A stretch of DNA of 15,275 bases from Candidatus Cloacimonadota bacterium (lineage in GTDB: Bacteria > Cloacimonadota > Cloacimonadia > Cloacimonadales > Cloacimonadaceae), in NCBI GenBank assembly GCA_012519465.1, contig JAAYQD010000203.1, forward strand, positions 1 through 15,275, read 5' to 3'. Position 1 is the first letter of the stretch, and every line of letters starts with the position of its first letter. A program made the translations under genes and the position numbers. Below are positions 649-15,275 of this stretch, in pieces. The notes under the pieces were generated by a model. It did no database searches and was not told the origin of the DNA. It was given only the letters and a program-made list of their open reading frames with translations.

Positions 649-1931
649 AAAAGGTATTATACATCGTCTATTACTATCCTCCTCTGGGTGGTTCTGGCGT
701 ACAGCGTGGCACGAAGTTTTCCAAGTATCTGCCTCTTTCCGGATGGGAAAGTGTGGTGCTGACACCGCGTCCAGCTTTGGTGAAGCATCCCAAAGATAGG
801 AGTCTGCTGGATGATATGCCCACCGGGCAGGCAATCTATCGCACCTTCACCCTGGATGCCCACTGGCTATATAAGGTGTTTTGGGGCTTGCGTTTGCCCA
901 AGGTGGTTACCTGGCTGATGTTTCATGTGTTCAGGCCGGATGCGGAAATCCTGTGGCTGCCCTTTGCCAAGCTGCAAATCCCGCACATTCTAAAGAGACA
1001 CAAGATTGATCTCGTCTTTATCTCCGGTCCTCCTTTTTCCATAATGCAGCTGGGAAAGTGGATCAAGGATAGATATGGCATTCCGTATGTAGCCAGTTTT
1101 CGCGATGATTGGAGCTTGGGACAAAGCCGCTTGGACAACCCTCCCCCTGCCAGTTTTACCAAATATGAGCGCAAGCTGGAAAAAGCAGCTTTGGAGGAGG
1201 CAAGCCACGTGGTGGTGGTGAATAAAGCATATAAAAGGGATTTCCTGAGCCTCTATCCCCATCTTGCACAGGATAAATTTACCGTGATTACAAACGGGTA
1301 TGATGAGTCTGACTTTGAGGGGCAGCCTCCGCAACGGGAAAAAGACAAGGGCAAGCTGCAAATCGTGCATCCGGGGGTACTGTTTGGGCGCAGGCATCCC
1401 GGCATTATCTGGCAGGCAATCCTGAATCTGATAGACAGGGGCAAGATTGACCCTCGCCTCCTGCGCATCCATATTTATGGGCGCAATTTCAGCTCTTTTG
1501 TTTTTAAAGGATTCGAGCAAAACCACACTATCCGCAGCATCGTGAGGCTGCACCCTTACCTGCCTCACGACCAGACAATTGATGTGATCAGACAGGCTGA
1601 TTTGCTGCTACTTTTCTCCGGACCCGGTGCCAAAAGTGATGCGGAAATGCCCGGCAAACTATTTGAATACCTGCGCGCAGGCAAGCCCATCTTGGGGATA
1701 ATCCACCCTGAAGGCGTATCTGCGGAAATCCTGCAAAGAGCCGGCAGTGGTTTTGTAGCCAGCCAGGAAGACATTACCCAGATCGAAGAGACACTCCTGC
1801 AAATCTACCAATTGTGGCAGAATAAAGAGCTATCCATCAACCCAGATTGGGAGTATATCAAGACCTTTGAACGCCGGGAATTGAGCGCAAAACTGGCGTC
1901 TGTATTTGACGGAGTACTGCAAGAAATATGA
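645..1931 (+). CDS. Glycosyltransferase, GT4-like (GT-B fold)
   Basis: This 428-residue protein begins with a Rossmann-type beta strand and a glycine-rich loop (MKKVLYIVYYYPPLGGSG, then VQR), as in GT-B enzymes of the GT4 group. The N-terminal half ends near the ITNGYD motif (215-220), the usual hinge to the nucleotide-sugar-binding half. The C-terminal half carries EMPGKLFEYLRAGKPILGI (334-352), matching the donor-phosphate-binding element of WbpI/WcaI-like enzymes. No membrane segment is evident. The start ATG overlaps the stop of the methyltransferase and the stop overlaps the next start, so it is the middle member of a coupled operon. It probably adds one sugar during synthesis of a cell-surface polysaccharide or O-antigen; donor and acceptor cannot be told. 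Confidence 0.88.
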   Translation: MKKVLYIVYYYPPLGGSGVQRGTKFSKYLPLSGWESVVLTPRPALVKHPKDRSLLDDMPTGQAIYRTFTLDAHWLYKVFWGLRLPKVVTWLMFHVFRPDAEILWLPFAKLQIPHILKRHKIDLVFISGPPFSIMQLGKWIKDRYGIPYVASFRDDWSLGQSRLDNPPPASFTKYERKLEKAALEEASHVVVVNKAYKRDFLSLYPHLAQDKFTVITNGYDESDFEGQPPQREKDKGKLQIVHPGVLFGRRHPGIIWQAILNLIDRGKIDPRLLRIHIYGRNFSSFVFKGFEQNHTIRSIVRLHPYLPHDQTIDVIRQADLLLLFSGPGAKSDAEMPGKLFEYLRAGKPILGIIHPEGVSAEILQRAGSGFVASQEDITQIEETLLQIYQLWQNKELSINPDWEYIKTFERRELSAKLASVFDGVLQEI

Positions 1932-3004
1932 AGCCACATATATTTTTTGTAAAGCCCAATGACAGTCCCTTTACCAAAGTGGATTCGTCCATCCTGCAAA
2001 GCCACTTCCCTCTGAAATCCATCAACCTCAGACAGAGCAGCGGCAGGCTCCATTATCTCTGGTCTTTATGCAAGCTTTTTTTGAAGATCTTAGCCAGTCC
2101 TTCCCCCACCCTCGTGGCAGTGTGGTTTGCAGATTATCATGCGGCGGTGGCAGTCTTGGCGGCACGCCTCAGGGGTTTTAAGAGTGTTGTTTTCATAGGC
2201 GGCTTCGATGCCGTATGCTATCCGGAATTCAATTATGGTGCTTATTGCAGCAAGTTGCGCTCCGCCATGGTACGCTATGCCCTCAAGCGCACAAATCTGA
2301 TCATTGCCAACCACGCCTCCCTATTGCAGTCTTCAAATACATACTATAATCCAGAGGGGCATACAGAGGGCATATTCAACCTGATCCCTTCCCTGAAAAC
2401 ACCAGCAATTGTGATCCATAATGCAATCACCATCGCGGCACCGGATGCCCTCTCACTGCAGCAGGAGCGTAAGATCGATTTCCTCTGTGTGGGTGGCACG
2501 CCCCGCTATAATGATAGTTATAACAAGGGGTTTGACCTCATCGCAGCCTTTGCCAAACAGAATCCCCAATATGCGATTCATATTGTTGGGCTCAAAAAAG
2601 AGTTTCATGATAGATTCAGGCAGGAGCACAGTCTGGATGAAAACACCAACCTCATTCTGTATGATAGGCTCTCACATCGCAAGGTATTGCAAATGTTAGG
2701 CAACACCCGCTTTTACCTCCAGCCTTCCATCTCCGAGGGTATGCCTAATGCGCTGATGGAGGCAATGGTGATGGGATGCATGCCAATAGGATCGAATGTG
2801 GCAGGGATTCCCACACTCATCGGTGAATATGGGGTAGTTTTTGCGCAAAGAGACGTGGGCAGCTTCAGCCGAGCCATCAGTAAAGCGCAAAATCTGAAAC
2901 ATAATCCACACGAAATATCACAATGGATGCAAGGGGAATTTAGCGTTGAGCAGAGAGCAGAAAAGCTGATCAAAGCTATCAAGGGCATATATTCACAAGA
3001 TTGA
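1928..3004 (+). CDS. Glycosyltransferase, GT4 family
   Basis: This 358-residue GT-B glycosyltransferase has a clear Glycos_transf_1 domain in its C-terminal half. Visible elements are the strand DFLCVGGTPRYNDSYNKGFD (194-213), with the lysine/glycine loop that normally contacts the nucleotide sugar, and the retaining-enzyme E-x7-E motif (E280 and E288 in SISEGMPNALMEAM), followed by GIPTLIGEYGVVF. The N-terminal half is less conserved, as usual, since it binds the acceptor. The start overlaps the upstream stop by ATGA. It is the last gene of the glycan operon; the next feature is a convergent tRNA. No clear terminator hairpin is seen in the 40 bases after the stop. The sugar specificity is unknown. 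Confidence 0.87.
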   Translation: MKPHIFFVKPNDSPFTKVDSSILQSHFPLKSINLRQSSGRLHYLWSLCKLFLKILASPSPTLVAVWFADYHAAVAVLAARLRGFKSVVFIGGFDAVCYPEFNYGAYCSKLRSAMVRYALKRTNLIIANHASLLQSSNTYYNPEGHTEGIFNLIPSLKTPAIVIHNAITIAAPDALSLQQERKIDFLCVGGTPRYNDSYNKGFDLIAAFAKQNPQYAIHIVGLKKEFHDRFRQEHSLDENTNLILYDRLSHRKVLQMLGNTRFYLQPSISEGMPNALMEAMVMGCMPIGSNVAGIPTLIGEYGVVFAQRDVGSFSRAISKAQNLKHNPHEISQWMQGEFSVEQRAEKLIKAIKGIYSQD

Positions 3005-3044
3005 TTGGCACCGAAAATCCACTTAAATTGCAGGCATAAAAAAA

Positions 3045-3120
3045 TGGTGGCGAAACCCAGAATCGAACTGGGGACACAAGGCTTTTCAGGCCTCTGCTCT
3101 ACCGGCTGAGCTATCTCGCC
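3045..3120 (-). tRNA. tRNA-Phe (anticodon GAA), CCA encoded
   Basis: Read on the - strand, 76 nt fold into a complete cloverleaf. The acceptor GGCGAGA pairs with TTTCGCC (one G-T pair). The D stem is GCTC/GAGC, the anticodon stem GAGGC/GCCTT with loop CTGAAAA, and the T stem CCCAG/CTGGG with loop TTCGATT. Loop positions 34-36 read GAA, giving phenylalanine. The 3' CCA is encoded (3045-3047), preceded by discriminator A. A run of seven T follows the 3' end on the tRNA strand (3038-3044). The gene converges on the glycosyltransferase operon. Confidence 0.97.
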
Positions 3121-3136
3121 ACCTTTCGAAGCCACT

Positions 3137-3162
3137 ATTTTAACGCTGTGGGATTTTGTCAA
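3137..3162 (-). promoter_or_regulatory. Candidate promoter of tRNA-Phe
   Basis: On the - strand a perfect -35 hexamer TTGACA (3157-3162) lies upstream of the tRNA. A -10-like TAAAAT follows at 3137-3142, but only 14 bp away; AATAGT at 17 bp is the alternative. Transcription would start a few bases before the mature 5' end at 3120. The -35 and position are convincing; the exact -10 is not. Confidence 0.5.
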
Positions 3163-3563
3163 GATAAAAATGCCGCTGATGGGCAAATGGAACATGCCGA
3201 ACCCTTTCTGCCTATCAGCCTTCTAAGACAGTTGATCAATACAAGCAGCTTCATACCAAGGTATAGTCTGTCAGGTCAACGTGGAGAGTGTCGAATAAAA
3301 ACGGGCATTGGGGTCAAATTTGGAACAAAACACCCTTTTACAGCCCTCTTTTTTGTTCACATATACGTACAACAGTCTTAATGAACAAGAGATCAATTTA
3401 TTCTTGAATTCAGGAACATTGAACTCATCGGTCAAGGCAGCACGGGCTAAGCGTACCCTACTGAAGAGCAAAAGTTTATAACACTGATACAGAAATTGTT
3501 GTTGACAAAAACTGTGATTTTGAGGCTATCGTAAGTGACACGCAAAGAAAGTGAGAGTAACAA
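3163..3563. other. Gene-poor intergenic region
   Basis: About 400 bases hold no convincing gene. Short open frames occur on both strands (for example a 77-codon frame at 3148-3381 on + that begins inside the tRNA promoter), but none has a ribosome site plus a recognisable domain. A 7-bp inverted pair TTGTTCA/TGAACAA sits at 3353-3359 and 3382-3388 with a 22-base spacer, and a small ATACC-AA-GGTAT palindrome at 3253-3264; both are weak. The stretch could be decayed sequence left beside the nuclease gene, but no parent gene is recognisable. Confidence 0.4.
3502..3531 (+). promoter_or_regulatory. Weak candidate promoter of the nuclease-like gene
   Basis: A perfect -35 hexamer TTGACA occurs at 3502-3507, about 55 bp before the start codon at 3564. 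The corresponding -10 is poor: GCTATC at 17 bp or CTATCG at 18 bp. It is listed because it is the only good -35 in the right place; another sigma factor or promoter is possible. Confidence 0.3.
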
Positions 3564-4673
3564 ATGAAAGAAATAATAAAAAATATCAGGTCTCTGCTGG
3601 CTGATAGAGTTTTCTTGGATGAACAGCACGTTCGCTTTTCATTAGTTGGAAGAATATGTAAAAAGCTGGGATGGAATATCTGGAACCCTGCCGAATTCCA
3701 CACCGAGTATAAGGTACAAAAAGTTCCCACACAGATACTGCCCAAGGATTCAAGTGGAAGAGTAGATGTTGCTTTGTTTCTTTCAGACAAGAATTCCAAG
3801 GCTGCCGAAGTATTCATGGAGATCAAATCCCCCGGCAAGCTGATGCCCTTCCTCAAGGAATGTGAAGACCAGTTGCATGCCTATACAGGCCATCACCGGA
3901 TAGCAATTGGAATACTCACAGATGGGATCATCTGGCGTTTCTATGTGCCGGCAATTGGTGGTTACTTCAAAGATACCCTGTTTGCACAGTTGAATCTTGA
4001 AAAGGATGATATTGATACCTTGGTTACTTTCTTCAATGATATCTTGCACAGGGATAACTTCCGAAAAAAGGCACAAGATAAAGCGGAACAGATGTTTGAA
4101 GAGCTGGGAAATATCGAGCTGGTACAGAAGGTTAAATATCAAGCCATTGATATTGCCAAAGCCACAGGAATGGAAATGCATCTTATTGCCCAGCGTCTAT
4201 TAAAACAAAATGATGGCACCGAGATGGATATCGAGCTAATCCAGAGGCTATGGAACAAATCCATTCCTGCCGTTACAGATCATACCCCAAAACATCCAGA
4301 ACAACCATCTCCTTCGATGAGAATCACGCCAGCAAAGGGTGACTACGTTGAAGCCTTCATCTCTGCCAGAGGAGTAAAAGCATCCGGGCGATTCAATAGA
4401 AATACAAAGGAATTCATCTTATACAAAGGCTCCGAAGTTGTAGTGAATCATACATCTACCTTTACAGGAAATTACCTTGCCAACAAGAAAAGAATGATTG
4501 AAGCGGGAATACTGGTATTAGATCCATCAAATACAAAATATATACTTACTCAAGATGTGTCATTCAATGCACCCTCCCCTGCTTCCCATCTCGTCCTCGG
4601 AAGATCATCAAGCGGGTACGTGGATTGGAAAGACTCCAAAGGCATCGCGCTTGAAGAATACAAGTTAAAATGA
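3564..4673 (+). CDS. HsdR-N-like nuclease-fold protein with C-terminal DUF4357
   Basis: This is a 369-residue protein of two parts. Residues 1-150 resemble the N-terminal nuclease domain of type I restriction R subunits (HSDR_N, PD-(D/E)xK fold): RVDVALF supplies D68 and EVFMEIKSPG supplies E86 and K88, the expected D...ExK metal site. This is followed by an LTDGIIWRFY segment usual in this family. Residues 262-366 (FISARGVKASG, ILYKGS, LVLGRSSSGYVDWKD) match DUF4357, a small C-terminal module seen in restriction-like and GIY-YIG-containing proteins. There are no helicase motifs and no neighbouring hsdM or hsdS, so it is not a complete type I system. It is monocistronic, flanked by long noncoding stretches. 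Its ribosome site is weak (GTGAGAG, 3550-3556). It may be a defence or DNA-processing protein; its activity is inferred. Confidence 0.8.
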   Translation: MKEIIKNIRSLLADRVFLDEQHVRFSLVGRICKKLGWNIWNPAEFHTEYKVQKVPTQILPKDSSGRVDVALFLSDKNSKAAEVFMEIKSPGKLMPFLKECEDQLHAYTGHHRIAIGILTDGIIWRFYVPAIGGYFKDTLFAQLNLEKDDIDTLVTFFNDILHRDNFRKKAQDKAEQMFEELGNIELVQKVKYQAIDIAKATGMEMHLIAQRLLKQNDGTEMDIELIQRLWNKSIPAVTDHTPKHPEQPSPSMRITPAKGDYVEAFISARGVKASGRFNRNTKEFILYKGSEVVVNHTSTFTGNYLANKKRMIEAGILVLDPSNTKYILTQDVSFNAPSPASHLVLGRSSSGYVDWKDSKGIALEEYKLK

Positions 4674-4728
4674 AGACCATGTAAAACTTTATCGTTACGT
4701 ATAAGATACAAACCTCGCCTATTAGCCT

Positions 4729-4782
4729 CCCTTGTACCACCCTTGTCTCACCCTTGTCGAGGCAAAGGAGAGACAAGGGTGG
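4729..4782. repeat. 11-bp-phased CCCTTGT repeats ending in a 13-bp inverted repeat
   Basis: CCCTTGT occurs at 4729, 4740 and 4751, exactly 11 bp apart. Its reverse complement ACAAGGG lies at 4773, two further 11-bp steps away, and a 5/7 match to that inverted form sits at the in-between step (4762). The outer parts make a perfect inverted repeat, CCACCCTTGTCTC (4737-4749) with GAGACAAGGGTGG (4770-4782), around a 20-base loop. No T-run follows on +, so it is not a canonical terminator of the nuclease-like gene 64 bp upstream. It lies 58 bp before the -35 at 4841. It is either a phased regulator-binding array or a copy of a dispersed intergenic repeat. Confidence 0.6.
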
Positions 4783-4840
4783 TTAATGGGAAGGAATATT
4801 ATAACCTGAGTACGAAATCTTGATCCCTGCACTTTTTAAC

Positions 4841-4869
4841 TTGACACAAATCACCTCTTAAACTATATG
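4841..4869 (+). promoter_or_regulatory. Promoter of the phospho-signalling operon
   Basis: A perfect -35 TTGACA (4841-4846), a 17-bp spacer and TATATG as -10 (4864-4869) form a strong sigma-70-type promoter facing the nine-gene cluster. The leader to the first gene would be about 145 nt. A small inverted pair ACCTC (4853-4857)/GAGGT (4869-4873) flanks the -10 and might serve as an operator; this last point is weak. The rest of 4674-5023 holds no gene. Confidence 0.65.
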
Positions 4870-5023
4870 AGGTTTGTCGTGCTTTTGATGATGAAATGCC
4901 TGTTGGACTATAGATATTCAACGTCAAAGGCACCACTCAATAAGGTCGAGGTTATGATACGGAAAAATGTATAAGTCTTTACAGTATGTCTTTATACAAA
5001 AGAGGAAGCGGAAAGAAAGTGTA

Positions 5024-5494
5024 ATGCCTTCTTCACATGATAACACATCCTTACAAACGGCAGAACGCACAACACCCATGTCAATGAAATGGGTACAAGT
5101 GATACTAATCAAGATCCACAACTCATACCGTATTATTTCTTTTATCAGTATTTCCCTCATATTGGCATGCTTAACCATCTTAAGTTTTTCAAACCCAGAA
5201 TCTTGGGCTCCAGTTTACCGCTGTCCAGTATACTCTTTAATGGGAATCAAGTGCCCTGGATGTGGGTCTATGCGTGCGCTTTATCATCTTATACATGGGG
5301 ATATCAAATCGGCTTTGGGATACAATTTTGTTACTATATTTATGCTTCCAGTTTTATTGATCAGTTTTTCAATGGGGTTATTTATGGGTCGTGAGCTAAG
5401 GCCCAATATCAGGATTTATAAAATTTTAACCAGTACGTTTCTATTTCTATTGATCGGCTTTACGATTGTCCGTAATATAATCACAATTCTATAA
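5024..5494 (+). CDS. DUF2752 family membrane protein
   Basis: This 156-residue protein carries the DUF2752 signature: CPVYSLMGIKCPGCGSMRAL, then HGDIKSALGYN, that is the CP...GxxCPGCGxxRA motif followed by a GD...AL..N helix. Three hydrophobic segments are visible: one before the motif (IISFISISLILACLTILSF), one after it (FVTIFMLPVLLISFSMGLFM) and one at the C-terminus (LTSTFLFLLIGFTIVRNIITIL). I chose the ATG at 5024 because a purine-rich site (GGAAAG, 5010-5015) precedes it by 8 bases. The frame can also start at 4967, adding 19 residues with a poorly spaced site, or at 5081. The family has no established biochemical function. It is the first gene of the operon, 14 bp before a kinase that carries a CD225 domain; DUF2752 and CD225 proteins are often encoded together in bacteria. 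Confidence 0.88.
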   Translation: MPSSHDNTSLQTAERTTPMSMKWVQVILIKIHNSYRIISFISISLILACLTILSFSNPESWAPVYRCPVYSLMGIKCPGCGSMRALYHLIHGDIKSALGYNFVTIFMLPVLLISFSMGLFMGRELRPNIRIYKILTSTFLFLLIGFTIVRNIITIL

Positions 5495-5508
5495 TATATG
5501 GAGAACTT

Positions 5509-6648
5509 ATGCTTAGTATCGGTGATGAACTTCAAAACTTTAAAATCTTAAGCCTTCTTGGGAAAGGCGGTATGGGCGAGGTATATTTGGGTGAAGACGT
5601 GCACTTAAATCGACGAGTTGCAATCAAGAAACTATCACATTCCTTGGTTTATGAAGAAGGTTTCATTCAAAGATTCAAGCGTGAAGCCCAGCTTCATGCC
5701 CAGCTCAAGCATACCAATATCGTCGATCTTTACAGTTTCTTTCAGCATGACGACTCATATTATATGGTCATGGAATTTGCTGAGGGGAAGACTTTAAGTG
5801 CCATGATCAAGGAAATGGGACCAATTCCCACGCAAAGGAGCGTCTTTATAGTCAAACAGCTTCTGGACGCCTTGGATTACGCCCATTCCATGCAAATCAT
5901 ACATCGCGACATCAAGCCTTCAAACATCATACTTGGGTCAAACGATCATGTTAAAATTCTCGATTTTGGCATCTCAAAGATTATGGGAGAAAGAGGGCTC
6001 ACCAGTACCGGCCAAGCTGTTGGTACAATATTTTATATGAGTCCTGAACAAGTTCGTGCCGTGAGCGATCTGGATGGAAGAAGCGACATATATAGTGCTG
6101 GTGTTACTTTCTTTGAGATGTTGAGCGGGAGACTACCTTACAACGTGGATACCGAGAGTGATTTTTATATCATTGAGCAAATTGTAAATACCAATATACC
6201 AGACCCCAGGAAATATTATCCAAGCATTCCAGAATATATCGTAACCATCCTTTCCAAAATGTTGATCAAAGATAGGGAAAGCAGATATTCCAGTGCTCAC
6301 GATGTGATTCACGATCTGGAAAACAAAAACCCCATAAAACCGAGCCCACAATATACACCCCAGATACAAAGACAAACGCAGACCCCAAACCATCAGCCAG
6401 TTAACTTACCTCAGCCTGACAACATTAAAACCTATTTAACACAATCCATATTGGTTACGTTGTTTTGCTGCCTTCCTTTTGGCATTGTAGCCATTGCAAA
6501 TAGTAACAAGACCACAAATGCCATCAAAATGGGAGATTATGCCTCTGCCCAAAAATTCTCTAAAACAACTAAAACTTGGGTCTGGGTATCTATCTGGGCA
6601 TCTATCATTATTGTAATATTCTCTGCCATTTCAGGGGGGTTGGGATAA
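5509..6648 (+). CDS. Ser/Thr protein kinase fused to a CD225/dispanin membrane domain
   Basis: Residues 10-270 form a Hanks-type kinase with every key element: glycine loop GKGGMGEVYLG (18-28), catalytic lysine K40 in VAIKK, IHRDIKPSN (131-139, base D134), DFG (152-154), an activation loop with TSTGQAVGT, and MSPEQ. A Pro/Gln-rich linker (275-305) follows. Residues about 307-372 match CD225/dispanin: TQSILVTLFCCLPFGIVAIA, GDYASAQKFSKTTKTW, and a second hydrophobic helix WVSIWASIIIVIFSAI. The kinase would thus be tethered to the inner face of the membrane by a dispanin-type hairpin rather than the usual single transmembrane helix with PASTA repeats. The ribosome site GGAGAA lies at 5500-5505. 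It is the second gene of the operon and the likely phosphorylator of the downstream FHA proteins and exporter. Confidence 0.93.
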   Translation: MLSIGDELQNFKILSLLGKGGMGEVYLGEDVHLNRRVAIKKLSHSLVYEEGFIQRFKREAQLHAQLKHTNIVDLYSFFQHDDSYYMVMEFAEGKTLSAMIKEMGPIPTQRSVFIVKQLLDALDYAHSMQIIHRDIKPSNIILGSNDHVKILDFGISKIMGERGLTSTGQAVGTIFYMSPEQVRAVSDLDGRSDIYSAGVTFFEMLSGRLPYNVDTESDFYIIEQIVNTNIPDPRKYYPSIPEYIVTILSKMLIKDRESRYSSAHDVIHDLENKNPIKPSPQYTPQIQRQTQTPNHQPVNLPQPDNIKTYLTQSILVTLFCCLPFGIVAIANSNKTTNAIKMGDYASAQKFSKTTKTWVWVSIWASIIIVIFSAISGGLG

Positions 6649-6701
6649 CAATTTGTAAGGAAGCTATATAACGATTACTTAGAGCTAAGGAGCCAAAAAT
6701 A

Positions 6702-7322
6702 ATGAAATGCCAAGTTTGTAAACATGACAACAACAGTTCTGCCGCGTATTGCAAAAATTGTGGCAGCCCTCTCAAGTCTCATAAAACCTGTAAAAGTGGG
6801 CATAATTATGATGCCTCATTAAACGAATGTCCCTATTGTCCATCACCAAATACTATGGGAAGCCAGGAAACCTTAATTGATTCGGGGCATTCGGCATCGG
6901 ATAAAACTATGATTAGTCCAAGCAAACCCCGATTGAATCCCCAAAATATGGGTCAAAGCCATAACTCTGATAAGACCATGATCTTCACACCCGGCCCCAG
7001 TAGCGCTCCAGCACCCGGGAAACGCAAACTGGTGGGATGGTTGGTTACATTTGATTTAGATCCTGCCGGTAATGACTTCAGGCTCACAGTTGGTAAGCAC
7101 AAGATTGGCCGTGGCTCAAATAATGAAGTAATGATCAATCAACAAGGTGTTTCTGAATCTCATGCCACCCTCCTCTATCGAGCGGGAAGATTCCTATTAA
7201 AAGACGAACTCTCTGTCAACGGCACTTTTGTGAATGGAGAAATGGCAGAAGACACCATTGAGCTATTCAATGGAGACATCATCACTGTGGGGGCCATAGA
7301 TCTTAAACTGATAATAATCTGA
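6702..7322 (+). CDS. Zinc-ribbon and FHA domain protein
   Basis: This 206-residue soluble protein starts with two Cys clusters: a zinc ribbon (C3, C6, C17, C20) and a second set C30, C43, C46, with H34 nearby. A low-complexity linker (50-108) contains three similar Thr motifs: ETLID (T57), DKTMI (T69) and DKTMI (T92). The C-terminal FHA domain (about 132-200) shows KIGRGSNNEV, SESHATL and SVNGTFVNG, the residues that bind phosphothreonine. Such proteins act as phospho-dependent adaptors. The Thr motifs are good candidates for phosphorylation by the two neighbouring kinases and for intra- or intermolecular FHA binding, by analogy with the GarA/OdhI type of switch. The ribosome site AAGGAG lies at 6687-6692. 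It sits 53 bp after the kinase gene. Confidence 0.9.
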   Translation: MKCQVCKHDNNSSAAYCKNCGSPLKSHKTCKSGHNYDASLNECPYCPSPNTMGSQETLIDSGHSASDKTMISPSKPRLNPQNMGQSHNSDKTMIFTPGPSSAPAPGKRKLVGWLVTFDLDPAGNDFRLTVGKHKIGRGSNNEVMINQQGVSESHATLLYRAGRFLLKDELSVNGTFVNGEMAEDTIELFNGDIITVGAIDLKLIII

Positions 7323-7333
7323 CGGAGGTTATG

Positions 7334-8854
7334 ATGAAACGTTTCTTGATTACATTATCGTTTGTGTGCCTTTGCATGCTATCTTATGCCTCCATATCCG
7401 TAAAACACATAAAAACAGACACAGAAAATTTCCCCCACAATGTGATAAGCGCTTTTCAGGTATTGGATGCTGCAGATGAACCTGTTGAAGATTTGGATGA
7501 AGACAATATTTCGATCATGCTGGATTCTTCCACCACTAAAATCATGAATGTAAGCACCTACGATAAAAGTGGACACGGGGCTAATATCATGCTTTGTATT
7601 GATATCTCCGGCTCTATGAAGGGGAGCCCCATCCAAGCAGTGAAAAACGCCATTCTTCCCTTTATCGACGAGGTCAGAAAAACAGATAGAATTGCCATCA
7701 GCGTTTACGAAGATGGATATCAGCTGCTTTGTGACTTCTCGTCTGACAAGGACCTGCTAAAGCGCATTGTTTCTGAGATAGAACCACGTGGAAACTACAC
7801 ATCCTTTTATTACGGCGCACACAAAGGTTTGGAGCACCTTGTAAATTATAAAACAGATGGCGTAAAAATCATGGTGTTGTTGGGGGATGGTAAGGACGAA
7901 AACCCCACCCAATCTTATACTGAAGATGATGTGATTGCTTTGAGCAAAGAACACAGCACTCCCATTTTTGGTGTTGGTTTTACAAGAGTGGAGGCAATAT
8001 ATTTACAATCACTTGAGCGCATGGCAAATCAAACAGGGGGTACATACTATTATGCACCATCTGCCAGCGATCTGAAAAAGTATTTTGGTAAGCTAAACAA
8101 CCAAATCAACAAGATCTATATACTCAATTATGCTGTATACGGAATGACTGGAGATGGTCAGGAACATGATTTGAAAATAGTGGTAAACACAGAAATGGGT
8201 GAAGAGAGGGATACAGCCAAAATTGGTCTTCCTCATGGAGCAGCCCCAATAGAAGAACCTCGGGAAAAATCCGGCGGCAGCCTTGATACAAGCCTCGTTC
8301 TAATTATTTTAGGGGCTTCCCTTTTGGTGCTTATCATCATTTTCCTGATTGCAAGTTCTAAAAAGAAAAACCGCAAGGAAAAAGAGCGTATTGAAGCCGA
8401 ACGCCAAGCAGAAATCAAGGAAGCAGAAATACAAAAAGCGGAGGAAAGCAAACGCCTTGGTGAAGAGCTTGACAGGCAAAAACAAAAAGCTGAAGAACAA
8501 CGGTATCAGAAGCCCGTAGATGCAGTTAATAGAGAGCAAACCATGATCTTGAATGCAGGCTGCAATGAGCTCAAAATAGATTTTGAATATGGAGTATTGG
8601 CTGGCCAAACAAAGACTATCAATAAAAATGGCGCCACCATTGGGCGTGCAGCAGATAATGATATTGTGATCCCAGATAGTACTGTTTCCTCTCACCATGC
8701 AAGGATATCTTGCAGTTCCGGTTCTTTCACCATCGAAGATATGGGGTCATTAAACGGAACTTATATCAACGGTAACAAGATCACAATTTATCGTTTCAGT
8801 GGAAACTGCACTTTTATGGTTGGTTCTTCGGAAGGCAGAATCAGCTTAGTATAA
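7334..8854 (+). CDS. Membrane protein with outer VWA domain and cytoplasmic FHA domain
   Basis: A signal peptide (KRFLITLSFVCLCMLSYA) is followed by an extracytoplasmic VWA domain (about 84-265, numbering from 7331) with an intact MIDAS start DISGSMKG (D91, S93, S95) and conserved MVLLGDGKDE. Then come one transmembrane helix (321-341, SLVLIILGASLLVLIIIFLI), a basic stop-transfer stretch, a charged coiled coil (344-395), a Thr motif EQTMI (402-406) and a C-terminal FHA domain (434-500; TIGRAADNDIVI, SSHHARI, SLNGTYING). The layout predicts metal-dependent ligand binding outside and phosphothreonine reading inside. ATG 7334 fits the GGAGG site (7324-7328) better than ATG 7331, which leaves only 2 bases. 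It lies directly after the zinc-ribbon/FHA gene. The ligand is unknown; MIDAS proteins usually bind another protein. Confidence 0.92.
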   Translation: MKRFLITLSFVCLCMLSYASISVKHIKTDTENFPHNVISAFQVLDAADEPVEDLDEDNISIMLDSSTTKIMNVSTYDKSGHGANIMLCIDISGSMKGSPIQAVKNAILPFIDEVRKTDRIAISVYEDGYQLLCDFSSDKDLLKRIVSEIEPRGNYTSFYYGAHKGLEHLVNYKTDGVKIMVLLGDGKDENPTQSYTEDDVIALSKEHSTPIFGVGFTRVEAIYLQSLERMANQTGGTYYYAPSASDLKKYFGKLNNQINKIYILNYAVYGMTGDGQEHDLKIVVNTEMGEERDTAKIGLPHGAAPIEEPREKSGGSLDTSLVLIILGASLLVLIIIFLIASSKKKNRKEKERIEAERQAEIKEAEIQKAEESKRLGEELDRQKQKAEEQRYQKPVDAVNREQTMILNAGCNELKIDFEYGVLAGQTKTINKNGATIGRAADNDIVIPDSTVSSHHARISCSSGSFTIEDMGSLNGTYINGNKITIYRFSGNCTFMVGSSEGRISLV

Positions 8855-8863
8855 GGAGCTTTG

Positions 8864-9994
8864 ATGGCAAAAAAGAAACAAACACCAGATTTCCAGATTG
8901 GGAATCTCTCTGATGTGGGAAGGGTGAGAGATGAAAACCAAGATTTTTTTGGCAGTTTTAATGGAGTATTCGGCAAACTTATCGTGGTGTGTGATGGCAT
9001 GGGAGGGCATAAAGGTGGATCAATAGCATCTAGAATCGCCGTTAATGCCTTTCAAAGTCACTTTGAAAAGCTGAAGACAAATCACGATTCACAGTTTGAG
9101 CTGGAAGCTGCTTTTATTGTTGCCCAACAAAATATCTTGGCTTATGCAGCGGAGCATCCGGAAACCCATGGAATGGGAACCACTGCCGTTGCCTTATTAA
9201 TCCATGAAGATACCTGGTGGATAGCCCATACTGGTGATAGCAGAATATACCTAAAACGAAGATCCGTCTTCCGTCAGCTAACCAAAGATCATTCCTGGGT
9301 GCAAGGCTTGGTAGATAGTGGGATTTTAACGCCTGAACAAGCTGCCCAACATCCCAAGCGCAACATCATCACCAAGGCACTGGGAACTGAAGACTTTATG
9401 CCGGATATCCAAGGACCTTTCACGCTGATGAAAGGTGATACCTTCCTTCTTTGCAGCGATGGCCTTCATGAGTATTTCAAAGAAAAAGAGCTCTCGGATT
9501 ATTTGGATGATGACCCTCAATCCGCATGTCAAAACTTGGTAGATCAAGCGAATCAGAGGGGTGGTGAAGACAATATTACTGCACAGGTTGTGCGCAGTAA
9601 TATCGGAGATAAGCCCAGTTTAATCAGTCAATCAAATTATTTAAACTATATACTGATTGCTCTCTCAGCTATCGCACTGTTTCTAACTGGTTTTTTTATT
9701 TTCCACAGTATAAATAATATGCAAAGCATGAGAAAGAAAACTGAGGCTGATTCTTTACACATAAAAATAGAAAAGAAAACCAGCACTACCTCTGAAAAAG
9801 AGCAAACAATAAAGCAGAAAACGCAGATCACAGAAGATCAAAAGATGATGGGTGATGAAAAAGAGAAAGCAGAAAAAAAGGTGCAGCAATCAGACAATGC
9901 AAAGCAGAAAGTGAAAAGCACCATAGAAAAACCTTCCACAGAATCACCCCAAAAAGAACCCACCATAACAGAACCCACAACAGAGAATGAATGA
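8864..9994 (+). CDS. PP2C-family Ser/Thr phosphatase with C-terminal membrane anchor
   Basis: Residues 10-247 are a PP2C/Stp1-type phosphatase with the metal-binding motifs SDVGRVRDENQD, VVCDGMGGHKGG (D44, G45), GMGTTAVALL, HTGDSR, LLCSDGLHEYF (D199) and GGEDNIT (D236). A transmembrane helix follows (262-282, NYILIALSAIALFLTGFFIF), then a tail of about 95 residues rich in Lys, Glu, Gln and Thr ending at the stop. With the catalytic part cytoplasmic, the tail would lie outside the membrane. It should reverse phosphorylation by the two operon kinases. I start it at ATG 8864, five bases after AAGGAG (8853-8858), a site that overlaps the previous stop codon; the in-frame TTG at 8861 is less likely. 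The stop overlaps the next start (ATGATGA). Confidence 0.94.
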   Translation: MAKKKQTPDFQIGNLSDVGRVRDENQDFFGSFNGVFGKLIVVCDGMGGHKGGSIASRIAVNAFQSHFEKLKTNHDSQFELEAAFIVAQQNILAYAAEHPETHGMGTTAVALLIHEDTWWIAHTGDSRIYLKRRSVFRQLTKDHSWVQGLVDSGILTPEQAAQHPKRNIITKALGTEDFMPDIQGPFTLMKGDTFLLCSDGLHEYFKEKELSDYLDDDPQSACQNLVDQANQRGGEDNITAQVVRSNIGDKPSLISQSNYLNYILIALSAIALFLTGFFIFHSINNMQSMRKKTEADSLHIKIEKKTSTTSEKEQTIKQKTQITEDQKMMGDEKEKAEKKVQQSDNAKQKVKSTIEKPSTESPQKEPTITEPTTENE

Positions 9995-10338
9995 TGAAAA
10001 GAAACTGCATACTAATTCTCGCATTGTTGCTGTTATTGGCTGGGTGCATAGATAAGATTTCCAGATTAAAAAAAGAACAATTTGATATCCTCAAATCGAA
10101 TGTGACCCAAATATTGGGGCAAGAATACAAGGTAAAAAAGATCAATATCCAAAGCGAGGGATACAGTGAAAGCCGTGATCAATATACTGTTGAATTTACT
10201 TTTGACCTCAACAAGCCACATCCCCTCTTGCCCAAAACCACCAATCTGCCTGGCAGATTGGTTTTTGCCAAAGAAAATGAAGGTTGGAGGTGTATCTTCA
10301 ACTCCGGAAACCCCAAGGATTTGTTTAACCTCTTATGA
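9991..10338 (+). CDS. Small predicted lipoprotein
   Basis: This 115-residue protein has a short basic N-terminus, a hydrophobic stretch ILILALLLLLAGC and a lipobox LAGC, so Cys19 would be lipidated. The mature part of about 97 residues has no domain I recognise; it is charged, with alternating hydrophobic strands (YTVEFTFDLN, GRLVFAKENEGWRC) suggesting a small beta fold. It begins in ATGATGA overlapping the phosphatase stop (ATG 9991 or 9994), with no good ribosome site, so translation is probably coupled. Its stop overlaps the next gene by ATGA. Placed among membrane signalling genes, it may be an outer component of the exporter or a ligand of the VWA domain; that is inference only. Confidence 0.82.
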   Translation: MMKRNCILILALLLLLAGCIDKISRLKKEQFDILKSNVTQILGQEYKVKKINIQSEGYSESRDQYTVEFTFDLNKPHPLLPKTTNLPGRLVFAKENEGWRCIFNSGNPKDLFNLL

Positions 10339-10853
10339 AAACAAACAGCCAGCACCCTTTTGCCAGCACATCCAAACCAATAAACAAATTTTTGATCTGC
10401 TTATTGGTTATTTCCTTGATTATACTTGGGATTTCCTATTTTATCCATTGGAATATCCGGCAATTATTCAAGATAGAAAGAAGCGTTAAAATAGAGAACC
10501 CATTGGCTTTAGTGTTCCCACTAAAAATAGGCACAAGCTCGTTAATAATCAAAAATGACTCCCTTATCCCTTTCAAGGTGCAGTCTTTTCATCTCAATAT
10601 CTACAGATCTGATGGCGTCAAACTGATGGAAATCAAAGAGACAAAACCCCATCTTATCCCAAGTTTATCCACAGCTCAAATCCCCATTAAACCTTCAAGC
10701 TTCCAAGGCTTATCATTGTTGTCTCCAAACATGAGCAGCGTTACGATCGAAGGCACCATCAAGATTAACATCTTGGGGATTAGGTTCGATTATAGCTTAA
10801 ACAAAAGACATGAACTGCAGAAATTGTCTAAACCCCATATCTTCAGACAGTAG
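10335..10853 (+). CDS. Membrane-anchored protein with LEA14-like domain
   Basis: This 172-residue protein has an N-terminal cytoplasmic stub, one signal-anchor helix (about 18-38, KFLICLLVISLIILGISYFI) and an extracytoplasmic beta-rich domain. The pattern VKIENPLALVFPLKIG, SSLIIKNDSLIPFKVQSFHL, then TAQIPIKPSSF and VTIEGTIKINILGIRFDYSL resembles LEA14/WHy-type domains, which are small immunoglobulin-like folds. The similarity is by eye and moderate. It overlaps the lipoprotein stop by ATGA at its start and the exporter gene by 44 bp at its end. The tight coupling suggests it works with the exporter or lipoprotein at the outer face of the inner membrane. Confidence 0.8.
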   Translation: MKTNSQHPFASTSKPINKFLICLLVISLIILGISYFIHWNIRQLFKIERSVKIENPLALVFPLKIGTSSLIIKNDSLIPFKVQSFHLNIYRSDGVKLMEIKETKPHLIPSLSTAQIPIKPSSFQGLSLLSPNMSSVTIEGTIKINILGIRFDYSLNKRHELQKLSKPHIFRQ

Positions 10854-13032
10854 GTTTTGCACCCTGTGCGGAACCAAGGTGGAACTCACGAGCTCCCGCA
10901 TTATAACTATTGGACGTGCAGCCGAAAATGACCTTGTAATAGACAATTCTTTTATCTCCAAACATCATTGCAGAATACTGATAGATGAGGCCAGAAACGC
11001 CACACTGGAAGACCTAAACTCCTTAAACGGAACCTTCGTAAATGGCACGAGAATAACCAGGCAACTTATCACACCACAAGACATAGTGATGCTGGGAACC
11101 AGCTATAAACTTTATTCTTCCATGTGGACATCCAATCGCCCATCGCCACAGCCAGAGGCTCTGGGATACAAACAAATCCTCAATATTGGTCGTGATACAA
11201 CAAACGATATCGTAATCAAGAACATTCGTGTTTCCCGCCAACACGCGCAGCTATCCAAGTCTGTATCTGGTTGGCAAATAAAAGATTTGAATTCATCAAA
11301 TGGCACCTACGTTAATGGTCGCAAGGTTTCCCAGAGTATGATCACAGCCCAGGATGATGTAGTGGTGGGCGGTGTTCCGCTGGATTTGATCAGCATCTTC
11401 CAAGGGCAAAAGCAGGATTGGGATGCAACACTCAACCTGACAGCCAGAAACATCCGTTTCAGCGTACCCGGAAAAACAATCGTTGAAGACATCAACCTGT
11501 GTTTGAAGCCGGGTCAATTTATCGGCTTGATCGGGCCTTCAGGTTGCGGTAAAACCACCCTGATGATGATGCTAAATGGCTATTTGAAGCCGGTTTCCGG
11601 CAGCGTCTCAATCAGCGGAGTGTCCTTGTATCACAATCTCCAATCCTTTCAGGGACAGATGGGCTACGTGCCCCAGGACGACATTATCCATCGTGAGCTC
11701 AAGGTACGGGAATCGCTATACTTCACCAGTCAATTGAGGCTTGGCATCAGAATTTCTGAATCCGAACGCCAAAGCCAAATTGACAAAATCCTGCAAACAT
11801 TAGGGATGAGCTCCGCCAGTGAAACCCTGATCGGAACTCCAGAGAAGAAAGGCATCAGCGGGGGACAGAGAAAACGCGTAAACATGGCACAAGAGCTGAT
11901 TACAGAACCGCAGTTCTATTTTTTGGATGAACCCACCAGCGGCTTGGATCCACGTAGCGATCGTGATGTAATGCAGCTTTTGGCGGATTTGAGCGCCAGG
12001 GGGCATCTTGTTCTGCTTACCACCCACAATATAAACACAACCAATTTTAAACTCTTTTCCCACCTCATTGTGATGACGTCTGGCGGTAAGCTGGCATATT
12101 ATGGGCCATCCTCTCAAGTGTTGGATTACTTTGGAATCAAGGAGCCGGAAGATATCTTCGACGTGGTGGCTCACACTGAATCACAAAACCTCAAAAACAA
12201 GTATCAACAAAGCCCCCTGTATGCCCAATACTCCAATCCAGATCATCCCTTAATGCCAGATGCAGACCCCAAATCCATTTCCCCACAGCCCAAAGACGTG
12301 CTGCATCAATACAAAACACTGTGCAAAAGAACGCTCATTGTAAAGTTGAGAGATACTTTCAGCACGGCTGTACTGCTGTTGCAGGCACCCATCATCGGCA
12401 TCTTCACTTATCTTGTTTTCAAAGATAACGGTAGCATCGCGGCTCTCTCTTTTGTCTTGGTGATTGCCACCATTTGGCTGGGATGTTCAAACTCTGCCCG
12501 TGAAATCGTTACCGAGCAGAGCATCTTCAAGCGCGAACAAAAAGCAAGCCTCAGCGTGAGCGCCTATCTATGGTCAAAAATCACCATTCTCAGCATGCTC
12601 TGCATCCTGCAATGCTTGGTATTATCCTTTTTTGGCTCTATCACCGGTGATATTGCCTTCTTGCCTCTTTGGGCTGCTTTGTCCCTGATTTCCATCAGCT
12701 CTCTTGCCATTGGCTTAGTGATTTCAGCTGTTGTAAAAACCAGCGAAACGGCTATGGCTTTGGTACCCCTCACCCTTATCCCCCAAGTTATCCTGGGTGG
12801 ATTGATTGTTCCCTTTTCTCAAATCCCAGATGCCGTCAAAGTCCTGGCGGGTTTTATGCTCAGCCGTTGGTCTTTCGAGCTTATTCTGACGATGGATGAA
12901 GCCAATTCTTTGGTCACAGAAAATCTTGGATTCAATACCTCTAATATGGGCCTTGATTTACTTCTTATCGTCATTATGGGCGTCTTTTTTATCACCCTCA
13001 CACATATATTTTTGAAAAAGCGGGCAAGATGA
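10810..13032 (+). CDS. ABCG-type exporter with zinc ribbon and tandem FHA domains
   Basis: This 740-residue protein has, in order: a zinc ribbon (C3, C6, C17, C20); FHA-1 (about 33-98; IGRAAENDLVI, SKHHCRI, SLNGTFVNG); FHA-2 (125-190; IGRDTTNDIVI, SRQHAQL, SSNGTYVNG); an ABC ATPase with Walker A GPSGCGKT (242-249), Q-loop VPQDD, signature SGGQRKR (350-356), Walker B FYFLDEP (369-375) and switch H406; and a C-terminal ABC2/ABCG membrane domain of about six helices (516-735). This is the half-transporter order of ABCG proteins, so it should act as a homodimer. Mycobacterial Rv1747 has the same FHA-FHA-ABC layout and is controlled by the kinase PknF. The start overlaps the preceding gene by 44 bp; the zinc ribbon encoded there supports it although no strong ribosome site is seen. 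The transported substrate is unknown. Confidence 0.94.
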   Translation: MNCRNCLNPISSDSRFCTLCGTKVELTSSRIITIGRAAENDLVIDNSFISKHHCRILIDEARNATLEDLNSLNGTFVNGTRITRQLITPQDIVMLGTSYKLYSSMWTSNRPSPQPEALGYKQILNIGRDTTNDIVIKNIRVSRQHAQLSKSVSGWQIKDLNSSNGTYVNGRKVSQSMITAQDDVVVGGVPLDLISIFQGQKQDWDATLNLTARNIRFSVPGKTIVEDINLCLKPGQFIGLIGPSGCGKTTLMMMLNGYLKPVSGSVSISGVSLYHNLQSFQGQMGYVPQDDIIHRELKVRESLYFTSQLRLGIRISESERQSQIDKILQTLGMSSASETLIGTPEKKGISGGQRKRVNMAQELITEPQFYFLDEPTSGLDPRSDRDVMQLLADLSARGHLVLLTTHNINTTNFKLFSHLIVMTSGGKLAYYGPSSQVLDYFGIKEPEDIFDVVAHTESQNLKNKYQQSPLYAQYSNPDHPLMPDADPKSISPQPKDVLHQYKTLCKRTLIVKLRDTFSTAVLLLQAPIIGIFTYLVFKDNGSIAALSFVLVIATIWLGCSNSAREIVTEQSIFKREQKASLSVSAYLWSKITILSMLCILQCLVLSFFGSITGDIAFLPLWAALSLISISSLAIGLVISAVVKTSETAMALVPLTLIPQVILGGLIVPFSQIPDAVKVLAGFMLSRWSFELILTMDEANSLVTENLGFNTSNMGLDLLLIVIMGVFFITLTHIFLKKRAR

Positions 13033-13094
13033 CACTAATCTACAAATCACGCTTTGTTCAGCATGATGAATTTTCTACAATGAGGTAACACGTT

Positions 13095-14168
13095 ATGGTT
13101 CTATCTCCCAATCGAACGATTCGTGACTTTACAATTACCGAACTTATCGGCAAGGGTGGCATGGGTGAGATTTATCTCGCCAAAGATATCAATTTGAATC
13201 GCGATGTGGCAATCAAGGTCTTAAAATCAGAGCTCACCAATGACCCCAGTTTTGCCAAAAGATTCATCAATGAAGCAAGAGTACAGGCAATGTTAATCCA
13301 TGCCAATATCGTAACCCTGTATTCTTTCTTTGAAGAAGCTGGCCACTATTACATGGTTATGGAGCATGCGCCCGGAACCACTTTGGATACATTAATCAAA
13401 CAAATCAATATCATTCCCGAACCGCGAGCCCTCAACATCTTTCGCCAAATCTGTGAAGCTCTGGATTTTGCTCATAAAAAAGACATCGTACACCGTGATA
13501 TTAAACCGTCTAACATCATGGTAGATATCGAGAAAAATGATAACGTGAAAATCCTCGATTTTGGTATAGCCAGAATTCTAAGCGATGCTCGCCTTACCCG
13601 CACTGGAACAATGCTGGGAACCGTCAACTACATGAGTCCAGAACAGGTGCTGGCAGAAAAAGATATAGACCATCGCTCGGATATCTTCTCTGCTGGGATT
13701 CTGCTGTATGAGATGCTCACTGGAAGATTGCCCTACGATGTGGATACAGAAAGCCAATTCAATATTCAAGAACAAATCATCTATGAAGACATTCCCGATC
13801 CCCTCCAATTCTATGAATTCATCCGACCCTCCACCATAAACCTACTGGAAGCACTCACCCAGAAAAAGCGTGACGACCGACCGAATTGCATCTTGCAGGC
13901 GTATCAAGATAACTTCAAATACACTGATACACCTACTGTATCGCAGGAAGAAAAAGACCTTTCTATACCCGATGTCTCCACTGTGTCTGATGATGCTGGA
14001 TTTAATGATGATAAACAGGAAACTGACACTGAACACAAGACAACATACTCGGGAATCCATGAATTATCTGAACCTAAAAATAGACTATTGGATTTTTTAT
14101 TCACTATAATCATGTGGGGGCTCATTATTTTGTTTTCTGTCTTCTTGTTTACACACTGCAGCGGATAA
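13095..14168 (+). CDS. Ser/Thr protein kinase with C-terminal transmembrane anchor
   Basis: Residues 11-270 form a complete Hanks-type kinase: GKGGMGEIYLAKD (19-31), K41 in VAIKV, IVHRDIKPSN (131-140, base D135), DFG (155-157), an activation loop LTRTGTMLGT and MSPEQ. A Thr/Ser/Asp-rich linker (276-325) leads to a single transmembrane helix (about 333-353, DFLFTIIMWGLIILFSVFLF) at the extreme C-terminus, leaving no sensor domain outside. It is clearly paralogous to the kinase at 5509: both share GRLPY-(N/D)-VDTES and IPDP in the C-lobe, but the membrane modules differ. The ribosome site GAGG lies at 13082-13085. It is the last gene of the operon, 62 bp after the exporter. Confidence 0.93.
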   Translation: MVLSPNRTIRDFTITELIGKGGMGEIYLAKDINLNRDVAIKVLKSELTNDPSFAKRFINEARVQAMLIHANIVTLYSFFEEAGHYYMVMEHAPGTTLDTLIKQINIIPEPRALNIFRQICEALDFAHKKDIVHRDIKPSNIMVDIEKNDNVKILDFGIARILSDARLTRTGTMLGTVNYMSPEQVLAEKDIDHRSDIFSAGILLYEMLTGRLPYDVDTESQFNIQEQIIYEDIPDPLQFYEFIRPSTINLLEALTQKKRDDRPNCILQAYQDNFKYTDTPTVSQEEKDLSIPDVSTVSDDAGFNDDKQETDTEHKTTYSGIHELSEPKNRLLDFLFTIIMWGLIILFSVFLFTHCSG

Positions 14169-14205
14169 TTCTTTGATACTTATATAATAACATTCTTCAT
14201 ACCAC

Positions 14206-14240
14206 AAACTTGGCAGTCTATTGGCACAACTGCTAAGTTT
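14206..14240. promoter_or_regulatory. CIRCE-like inverted repeat (candidate HrcA operator) upstream of clpB
   Basis: Arms of 12 bp, AAACTTGGCAGT and ACTGCTAAGTTT, pair with one G-T across 11 bases. Set in the CIRCE frame this reads TTGGCAGTC (14210-14218), a 9-base spacer and AACTGCTAA (14228-14236). It matches the consensus TTAGCACTC-N9-GAGTGCTAA at 14 of 18 positions with the exact spacing. It ends 4 bp before the clpB -35. The alternative reading is a terminator for the kinase operon 38 bp upstream, but only three T follow, then CCCC. Confidence 0.55.
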
Positions 14241-14244
14241 CCCC

Positions 14245-14273
14245 TTGACAACCACCCTGCCTCCGCTTAATTT
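14245..14273 (+). promoter_or_regulatory. clpB promoter
   Basis: A perfect -35 TTGACA (14245-14250), a 17-bp spacer and a -10 TAATTT (14268-14273) point at clpB; the predicted start near 14280 gives a leader of about 33 nt. It is a housekeeping-type promoter, which fits repression by an upstream CIRCE-like site rather than a heat-shock sigma factor. Confidence 0.7.
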
Positions 14274-14312
14274 GTTTATAAAGAATAAGTTCATAGCATC
14301 AAGGAGGCAAGA

Positions 14313-15275
14313 ATGAACGCAGATAGATTTACCATTAAAAGTCAGGAAGCCCTGCAAGCCATGCACCATCTGGCTTCCGAAAGAGGACATCAGGAGCTCC
14401 GTAATATACACCTCTTATCTGCCATGTTGGCACAGGAAGACACCCTGATCCAGCCAGTACTACAAAAGCTGGAAATAGATGCCGGTGCGCTACAGATGAG
14501 CCTATTAGAGGCACTCAACAAGCTGCCTCAAATCACAGGTGCACAGCAGTATATGGGTCAGGAAGTTTTGGAGGTATTACAACAAGCTGAGAAAGACGCA
14601 CAGAAGCTGGGCGATGAATACGTTAGCCTGGAACACCTCCTGATGGCTCTTCTGGAAAAAGGCAAGGAAGCAGCCGATATTCTGCGCAATAATGGAATGG
14701 ATGCAGCAGCATTGTTGCAGGCTTTGCAACAGCTGCGTGGCAACCAGCGAGTGACAGACCAAAATCCGGAAGCCAAGTTTCAGGCTTTGGAAAAATACGC
14801 TCGCAACCTCACCCGCTTGGCACGCCAGGAAAAGCTGGACCCCGTGATTGGCAGAGACGAGGAAATCCGCCGCAGTGTGCAGATTCTCTCCCGTCGCCGC
14901 AAAAACAACCCCATCCTCATCGGGGAGCCGGGCGTGGGCAAGACGGCAATCGTGGAAGGTCTGGCTCGCCGTGTGGTGGCAGGTGACATCCCTGAAACCC
15001 TGAAAAACAAAGAGATAGTAGAGCTGGATATGGCAGCCTTGGTGGCAGGTGCCAAATTCCGCGGAGAATTTGAAGAACGTCTGAAAGCCGTATTATCCGA
15101 AGTGGAAAAGAGCGATGGCCGCATCATCCTTTTTATTGATGAGATTCACACCGTGGTTGGTGCAGGCGCTGCGGAGGGTTCAGTGGACGCCTCCAACATG
15201 CTAAAGCCCGCTTTGGCAAGGGGCACCCTACATTGCATCGGAGCCACCACCATCAATGAATACCGCAAACATATA
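14313..15275 (+). CDS. clpB: ATP-dependent chaperone ClpB, N-terminal part (runs off window)
   Basis: The frame is open from ATG 14313 to the window end (321 codons) and starts 5 bases after a strong AAGGAGG site (14301-14307). Residues 1-145 are the Clp N-domain repeat pair ([20 protein letters not shown]). The first AAA+ module follows: [12 protein letters not shown] (176-187), Walker A GEPGVGKT (204-211), pore-loop [15 protein letters not shown], Walker B ILFIDE (272-277) and [13 protein letters not shown] (292-304), wording characteristic of ClpB rather than ClpA/ClpC. ClpB is a cytoplasmic hexameric disaggregase that works with DnaK. The middle domain and second AAA+ module lie beyond the window. 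It has its own promoter and is separate from the signalling operon. Confidence 0.96.

Follow-up and report, generated by a model that had tools for sequence, protein, structure and literature searches.

The mycobacterial genes Rv1747 and pknF are described as a two-gene operon (PMC3908365), and an account of the Rv1747 protein reports that its FHA I domain binds a phosphothreonine (pThr) partner and that an Rv1747 mutant has fewer PIM glycolipids (PMC5549992). In the threonine-phosphorylation pathway of type VI secretion (T6SS), TagQRST-PpkA-PppA-Fha1, kinase, PP2C phosphatase, FHA, VWA, lipoprotein and ABC parts come together at the membrane, as reviewed in PMC10482370, and the VWA domain of PpkA is reported to lie on the kinase itself (PMC1262709). 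The Sulfolobus proteins ArnA and ArnB are presented as a switch operated with the kinase ArnC (PMC12852372, PMC6509490), in which ArnA holds ArnB through its zinc finger when unphosphorylated and through its FHA domain when phosphorylated. According to PMC12321487, a Thr motif before the FHA domain of GarA is phosphorylated, and GarA and OdhI are described as self-binding switches, the phosphorylated part being bound by the protein's own FHA domain (PMC2784874). GAP1-N2 systems are set out in PMC7159879 as a kinase-PP2C-VWA gene trio centred on a GTPase.

Here, we analyze a Cloacimonadota operon that shares parts with each of these systems. The window, by which we mean the whole stretch of 15,275 bases that was analyzed, is a complete contig (G000:C59) of its own genome, G000. 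With about even confidence, we read the operon as a laterally mobile cassette that encodes an envelope exporter switched by phosphorylation, in which a pThr tag would be written, erased and read by FHA domains.

Gene content and layout of the operon

Nine genes lie on the plus strand between position 5024 (or 4967) and 14168, with the order, strand and Pfam or motif content given by the initial annotation, which had described nine same-strand genes with small gaps or overlaps (Table 1). Neighboring genes are at most 62 bases apart (A-B 14, B-C 53, C-D 8, D-E 6, H-I 62) or overlap (E-F 4, F-G 4, G-H 44), and from this spacing we infer that all nine are carried on one transcript. The single promoter proposed ahead of them is less secure: TTGACA-N17-TATATG is legible by eye, but it is not among the sites listed by a consensus promoter scan of the window, and the number of promoter-like sites in that scan (34) is close to that for shuffled sequence (29.3).

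Table 1. Features of the window, with positions counted from its first base.
Feature	Position	Strand	Basis
Presence/absence unit, missing from same-genus G029, which has 88 other bases instead	4791..14230		window-G029 alignment
Candidate promoter TTGACA-N17-TATATG (weak)	4841..4869	+	by-eye reading
A: DUF2752 membrane protein	5024..5494	+	PF10825 E 7e-17; ORF open from 4967
B: Ser/Thr kinase, C-terminal two-TM CD225 domain	5509..6648	+	PF00069 E 4.7e-60, PF04505 E 1.5e-23
C: zinc ribbon, linker with pThr-tag-like sites, FHA	6702..7322	+	PF00498 E 1.2e-15
C Thr69 in DKTMI, predicted phospho-acceptor	6906..6908	+	sequence; family pattern
C Thr92 in DKTMI, predicted phospho-acceptor	6975..6977	+	sequence; family pattern
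D: signal-like N-terminus, VWA (DxSGS MIDAS), TM, linker, FHA	7331..8854	+	PF00092 E 4.5e-14, PF00498 E 9.5e-19
D Thr404 in EQTMIL just before FHA, predicted phospho-acceptor	8540..8542	+	relaxed pattern only (Q, not K/R)
E: PP2C phosphatase, TM 263-281, charged tail	8861..9994	+	NCBIfam NF033484 Stp1/IreP 242 bits, cut-off 230
F: lipoprotein (LLAGC), weakly NTF2/cystatin-like predicted fold (pLDDT 84)	9991..10338	+	
G: single TM and predicted LEA-2/Ig-like beta-sandwich	10335..10853	+	
H: zinc ribbon-FHA-FHA-ABC ATPase-ABC2 membrane domain (ABCG type)	10810..13032	+	PF00498 x2, PF00005, PF01061
I: Ser/Thr kinase, C-terminal TM	13095..14168	+	PF00069 E 9.4e-61; hydrophobic segment 334-352

The motifs on which a phosphorylation circuit would depend are intact. 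Both kinases, B and I, keep VAIK, HRDxKPxN and DFG, the PP2C phosphatase E retains its acidic motifs, and the FHA domains (one in C, one in D and two in H) each have the GR / SxxH / NGT core; the zinc ribbons score below Pfam's cut-off. In D, hydrophobic segments span residues 6-24 and 322-340 (TM), with the VWA domain at 85-251 and the FHA domain C-terminal. Because a hydrophobic N-terminus is followed by the VWA domain, one transmembrane (TM) segment and a C-terminal FHA domain, the VWA domain is predicted to be periplasmic and the FHA domain cytoplasmic. H has six hydrophobic segments and, in its membrane domain, residues that are invariant across 17 relatives; it scores 244 bits against TIGR00955, under the cut-off of 736.

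Pfam matched nothing in F or G. The description of G as LEA-like draws on its predicted fold (pLDDT 79), a TM helix with a beta-sandwich near LEA14 and the luminal domain of TMEM106B, but the LEA-type match is not clearly above other Ig-like folds and G has no Pfam or NCBIfam family match. The DUF2752 gene (A) adjoins the kinase-CD225 gene (B) at window 5024-6648, CD225 being a dispanin/IFITM-type domain, and a one-sequence DUF2752 model matched only the window among 88 sequences scanned.

Rarity of the parts and presence of the operon as one block

In its own genome (1.99 Mb, 89% complete), the operon's 9.3-kb stretch holds all four FHA matches, the only PP2C match and two of the four kinase matches (E 1e-10). 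The T6SS sheath protein TssC (PF05943) has no match anywhere in this 89% complete genome, in keeping with the initial remark that no T6SS gene is present, and is matched in only 1 of 124 Cloacimonadota genomes. The control lists of the FHA search vary between runs, Escherichia coli being matched in one and not in the other. Named close homologues carry Cloacimonadota labels, and one is labelled as a gammaproteobacterial MAG.

When the window is aligned to the same-genus genome G029, positions 806-3173, 4713-4790 and 14231-15275 match one 4.5-kb stretch in order, at 92, 96 and 93%, and the block between the last two spans the entire operon, from before the candidate promoter to past the last stop. 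In G029, clpB (98% identical protein) and the upstream glycosyltransferase gene (92%) are 433 bases apart, with tRNA-Phe between them. Because G029 lacks window 4791-14230 as one block, the operon behaves as one unit of gain or loss. Gain by transfer is the simpler reading and loss in G029 a possible one; H was found at E 1e-60 in none of five other same-genus genomes, and the operon genes have a G+C content of 37-46%, their flanking genes 48-52%. A second window stretch without a G029 counterpart, 3174-4712, holds a DUF4357 / HsdR_N-like gene and stands beside tRNA-Phe (3045-3120, minus strand).

On its left, the block borders a near-palindromic hairpin repeat of 78 bases (window 4713-4790; z -5.7) and REP/MITE-like form. 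This repeat has dozens of copies in both G000 and G029 (at least 40 scored stretches in each, both strands counted); in G030 it is matched once, weakly, and in G028, G031 and G032 not at all.

Conservation across Cloacimonadota

Among the 124 genomes of the phylum, FHA is matched in 35, H (E 1e-60) in 8 and D (1e-30) in 11, and all 8 genomes with H belong to the 11 with D. We read the neighborhoods of these 11 and of G038, whose sub-threshold D we located by way of its FHA domains; we also read regions in G031 and G029, and these contain no D. All 12 genomes with D have C, D and E side by side in this order, and H lies downstream of them on the same contig in 7 of the 12. Elsewhere, G048 has two contigs that each end inside an M48 gene, one with C-D-E and the other with G-H, G012 has just a 261-residue ABC ATPase at the position of H, and the G038 contig ends after E. 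G018 and G024 lack F, M48 and H while retaining C-D-E-G; therefore, the signalling part can exist without the exporter. The initial annotation had named scattering of the homologues in close relatives as a result that would speak against its reading, and we instead find C-D-E together in every genome where D was read and one block missing from G029.

An M48 metalloprotease lies between the PP2C gene and G in 7 of the 8 genomes with H, the order in relatives being C-D-E, then M48-G-H; it escaped the initial annotation because this copy lacks it, and a search of G000 with the G010 M48 found none. The nearest NCBIfam models to the M48 part are LoiP and BepA, both matched well below their cut-offs, and the nearest PDB entries are 3c37 and BepA. 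F and M48 are separate, with F first, in G010 and G034 and form one fused protein in G019, G020 and G023; no F was found in the G011 or G048 neighborhoods. In locus L018, the ORF start of F-M48 is too far upstream, the F and M48 parts lying in its last half.

The kinases, too, are inconstant: no kinase was found in the 20 kb read around the module genes of G019, G020 and G023, and a kinase is not a constant neighbor of the module in Cloacimonadota. A second cluster of kinase, FHA and PP2C matches (G018:C26, G019:C143, G020:C31, G023:C19), in genomes where no kinase was found beside the main module, could supply one to it. In G011 (L015:2897-5068), a kinase fused to an FGE-sulfatase domain follows H; TagR of the T6SS pathway has an FGE-sulfatase fold.

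Spread beyond the phylum

We scanned an alignment of H against one-genome-per-species contigs and kept the best 80 loci, of which 51 were counted, the 29 with less than 5 kb upstream being left out. Neighboring genes within 7 kb of H were scored with HMMs built from the Cloacimonadota genes, and loci were assigned to groups manually by record title, with 10 of the 51 classed as other or unclear. In these 51 of the best 80 loci, with rarity in the own genome rather than matched random regions as the control, a kinase is found near H in 33, PP2C in 22, a C-like gene in 20, M48 in 14, another FHA gene in 12 and a VWA-FHA gene in 6. PP2C, M48 and a further FHA gene occur together near the FHA-ABCG gene in 12 of the 51, by title Ignavibacteria (4), Bacteroidota (5), Acidobacteriota (2) and Myxococcota/Bradymonadota (1). 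In the same analysis, the matches on the H strand number 25/26 for PP2C, 45/52 for kinase, 19/22 for C-like, 11/14 for M48 and 4/6 for VWA-FHA genes. The full set could not be named at the outset, and we likewise found no description of it in open-licence PMC papers; it is not a one-off, however, as some of its parts recur near FHA-ABCG genes in several groups.

Some of these loci vary the arrangement. In Bacteroidota L064, L076, L087 and L092, an FHA domain is fused to M48 and a small kinase (269-283 residues) stands just before. At L019:3.3k, L021:8.5k and L022:8.6k, a zinc-ribbon protein of 155-166 residues, with hydrophobic stretches by eye, lies between M48 and H at the position expected for G. 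The titles of L065 and L092 (Klebsiella pneumoniae and Chryseobacterium gleum MAGs) are unlikely for such a locus, and titles serve as a rough grouping only.

A recurrent Thr motif in the C and D linkers

In C, the stretch linking the zinc ribbon to the FHA domain contains DKTMISPS and DKTMIFTP. The pattern [KR]Tx[ILVMF], chosen after reading 23 C linkers and often DKTMI-like, occurs at 36 sites in those linkers against 2.9 +/- 1.6 in shuffles; the four motif-free linkers are all Myxococcota/Bradymonadota by title. This set left out one short linker and 30 anchor-less rows, of which some are true C relatives (L055, L056) and others are not. We then scored a hold-out set of C proteins, drawn from a subsequent database search and from five additional loci; these proteins are relatives of those already seen. 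Of these, 27 of 31 were scorable, 4 being dropped for want of an anchor or for too short a linker; none of the 27 lacks a site and 24 carry more than one, giving 64 sites against 4.2 +/- 2.0 shuffled. In the linker before the FHA domain of D, among sequences already seen, the strict motif occurs in 9 of 14 and a relaxed form ([KRQH]) in 12 of 14, against 1.4 and 2.1 in shuffles; it is absent from D of L050 and L076. The shuffle figures overstate the excess because the sequences are related.

No excess is found in the VWA domains (4 vs 6.3 shuffled) or the C-terminal parts of PP2C (8 vs 11.4). The FHA domains of C are also above shuffles (17 vs 4.4), mostly through one strand site common to 12 of the 14 proteins concerned. 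From their sequence pattern, the Thr motifs of the C and D linkers are a likely phospho-code. The residues around the corresponding Thr of GarA, T-S-V-F, resemble T-M-I-F.

Proposed mechanism and alternatives

In the exporter cassette that we propose, kinases B and I would write pThr on tags of the DKTMI or ERTVI kind in the C and D linkers, PP2C (E) would erase them, and the FHA domains of H (two), C and D would read them. Phosphorylation would then bring C and D together at the ATPase end of H, altering the activity of H; alternatively, C and D may fold back on themselves, as in GarA/OdhI. D could carry information across the inner membrane through its predicted periplasmic VWA domain, linked to the cytoplasmic complex, while F, G and, in relatives, M48 would form the periplasmic side, in handling or quality control of the H cargo, which is probably a lipid or lipid-linked envelope molecule. 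Stated in full, the proposal becomes more tentative. We think it possible, if doubtful, that several phyla share an undescribed, laterally mobile system in which a zinc-ribbon-FHA adaptor and a transmembrane VWA sensor carry pThr tags at multiple sites; these tags would assemble on an FHA-ABCG exporter and switch it, and a periplasmic M48 protease would be coupled to that exporter. Such a bacterial kinase-phosphatase system would be dedicated to envelope export and quality control and have its own phospho-code.

The same part types (lipoprotein, ABC protein, kinase, PP2C, FHA and VWA) could instead belong to a T6SS-like pathway, in which the periplasmic parts and the ABC protein sense membrane damage, the kinase/FHA response acts elsewhere and H is a transducer rather than an exporter. 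The TagQRST-PpkA-PppA-Fha1 logic reviewed in PMC10482370, the kinase-FGE-sulfatase fusion after H in G011 and the C-D-E-G sets without H in G018 and G024 are consistent with this, but the virtual absence of TssC from the phylum, the lack of a VWA domain on either kinase, and the one-chain FHA-ABCG form of H with its invariant membrane-domain residues speak against it, and we consider the sensor unlikely. A pThr scaffold of the ArnA-ArnB kind, with C and D regulating gene expression or protein turnover and the ABC transporter an ordinary neighbor, would explain why C resembles ArnA over zinc ribbon and FHA domain and why the VWA domain of D resembles ArnB, which are described as switching with ArnC (PMC12852372, PMC6509490). 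We find it rather improbable: D, with its signal-like start, TM segment and own FHA domain, is unlike ArnB as described there, H itself has FHA domains, and C-like and PP2C genes accompany H at 20 and 22 of the 51 loci counted among the best 80.

The block-wise presence or absence of the operon, its patchy spread (H in 8 of 124 genomes) and the matches of its kinases to the PD-T4-6 and mad6 models raise the idea of a defence or conflict island, a mobile kinase/VWA/ABC cassette against phage or rivals. These matches look like generic kinase similarity, the two kinases scoring 159.5 and 130.4 bits against NCBIfam mad6 (MADS defence), under its curated cut-off of 460, and the nine genes have no Pfam match to a nuclease or toxin family; such a role seems very improbable. 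That the genes are chance neighbors or an assembly artefact is scarcely credible: a repeat with dozens of genome copies, as at the left edge, is a typical misjoin point, but at the right edge the sequence continues into clpB with no copy of that repeat, and the internal gene order is matched in other genomes.

For many bacterial FHA-ABC transporters and Hanks kinases, neither partners nor substrates are known. In this operon, one apparently movable block brings together writer, eraser, readers, likely acceptor sites and possibly the machine that they control, so that a few purified proteins would suffice to test the wiring. If the exporter reading is true, FHA, VWA, PP2C and M48 genes that stand unannotated in several groups would, through the shared core, become recognizable as components of a single system.

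Comparison with known systems

By its architecture, H can be named as Rv1747-type. As in Mycobacterium tuberculosis Rv1747, two FHA domains, an ATPase and a membrane domain are joined in one chain and a kinase gene is adjacent, I starting 62 bases after H, and the FHA parts of C and D both have an Rv1747 FHA structure (6cah) as their best PDB match, all of which bears out the initial likening of parts of the operon to Rv1747/PknF. The surrounding operon differs in adding the zinc ribbon, C, D, PP2C, F and G, and M48 in relatives. Kinase, PP2C, FHA, VWA, lipoprotein and ABC parts at the membrane recall the T6SS threonine-phosphorylation pathway; unlike PpkA, the VWA domain is here on the FHA protein D, and the ABC protein is an ABCG type with FHA domains of its own in a genome without a TssC match. 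The linked kinase, PP2C and VWA genes recall GAP1-N2 systems, whereas Pfam finds no GTPase above cut-off in any of the nine genes.

GarA and OdhI likewise have a Thr motif N-terminal to an FHA domain, which in them is phosphorylated, as is predicted here. The operon differs from these in having several DKTMI-like sites rather than one ETTS, and a membrane context rather than 2-oxoglutarate dehydrogenase. The pairing of a zinc-ribbon-FHA protein with a VWA protein, here under predicted kinase control, is that of ArnA-ArnB: C matches ArnA (5a8i) over residues 2-178 (E 4.1e-5), zinc ribbon and FHA included, and D matches the ArnB structure 8s05_A in its VWA part only (residues 80-249, E 6.5e-5). 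D lacks the ArnB layout of VWA, inserted beta-sandwich and C-terminal helical bundle, having a TM segment and FHA domain after the VWA domain, and in contrast to ArnA-ArnB the pair is bacterial, has a transmembrane D with its own FHA domain, and travels with PP2C and usually an ABC protein. Because ArnA holds ArnB by zinc finger or by FHA domain according to phosphorylation, the analogy suggests a similar double use of zinc ribbon and FHA domain in C and H.
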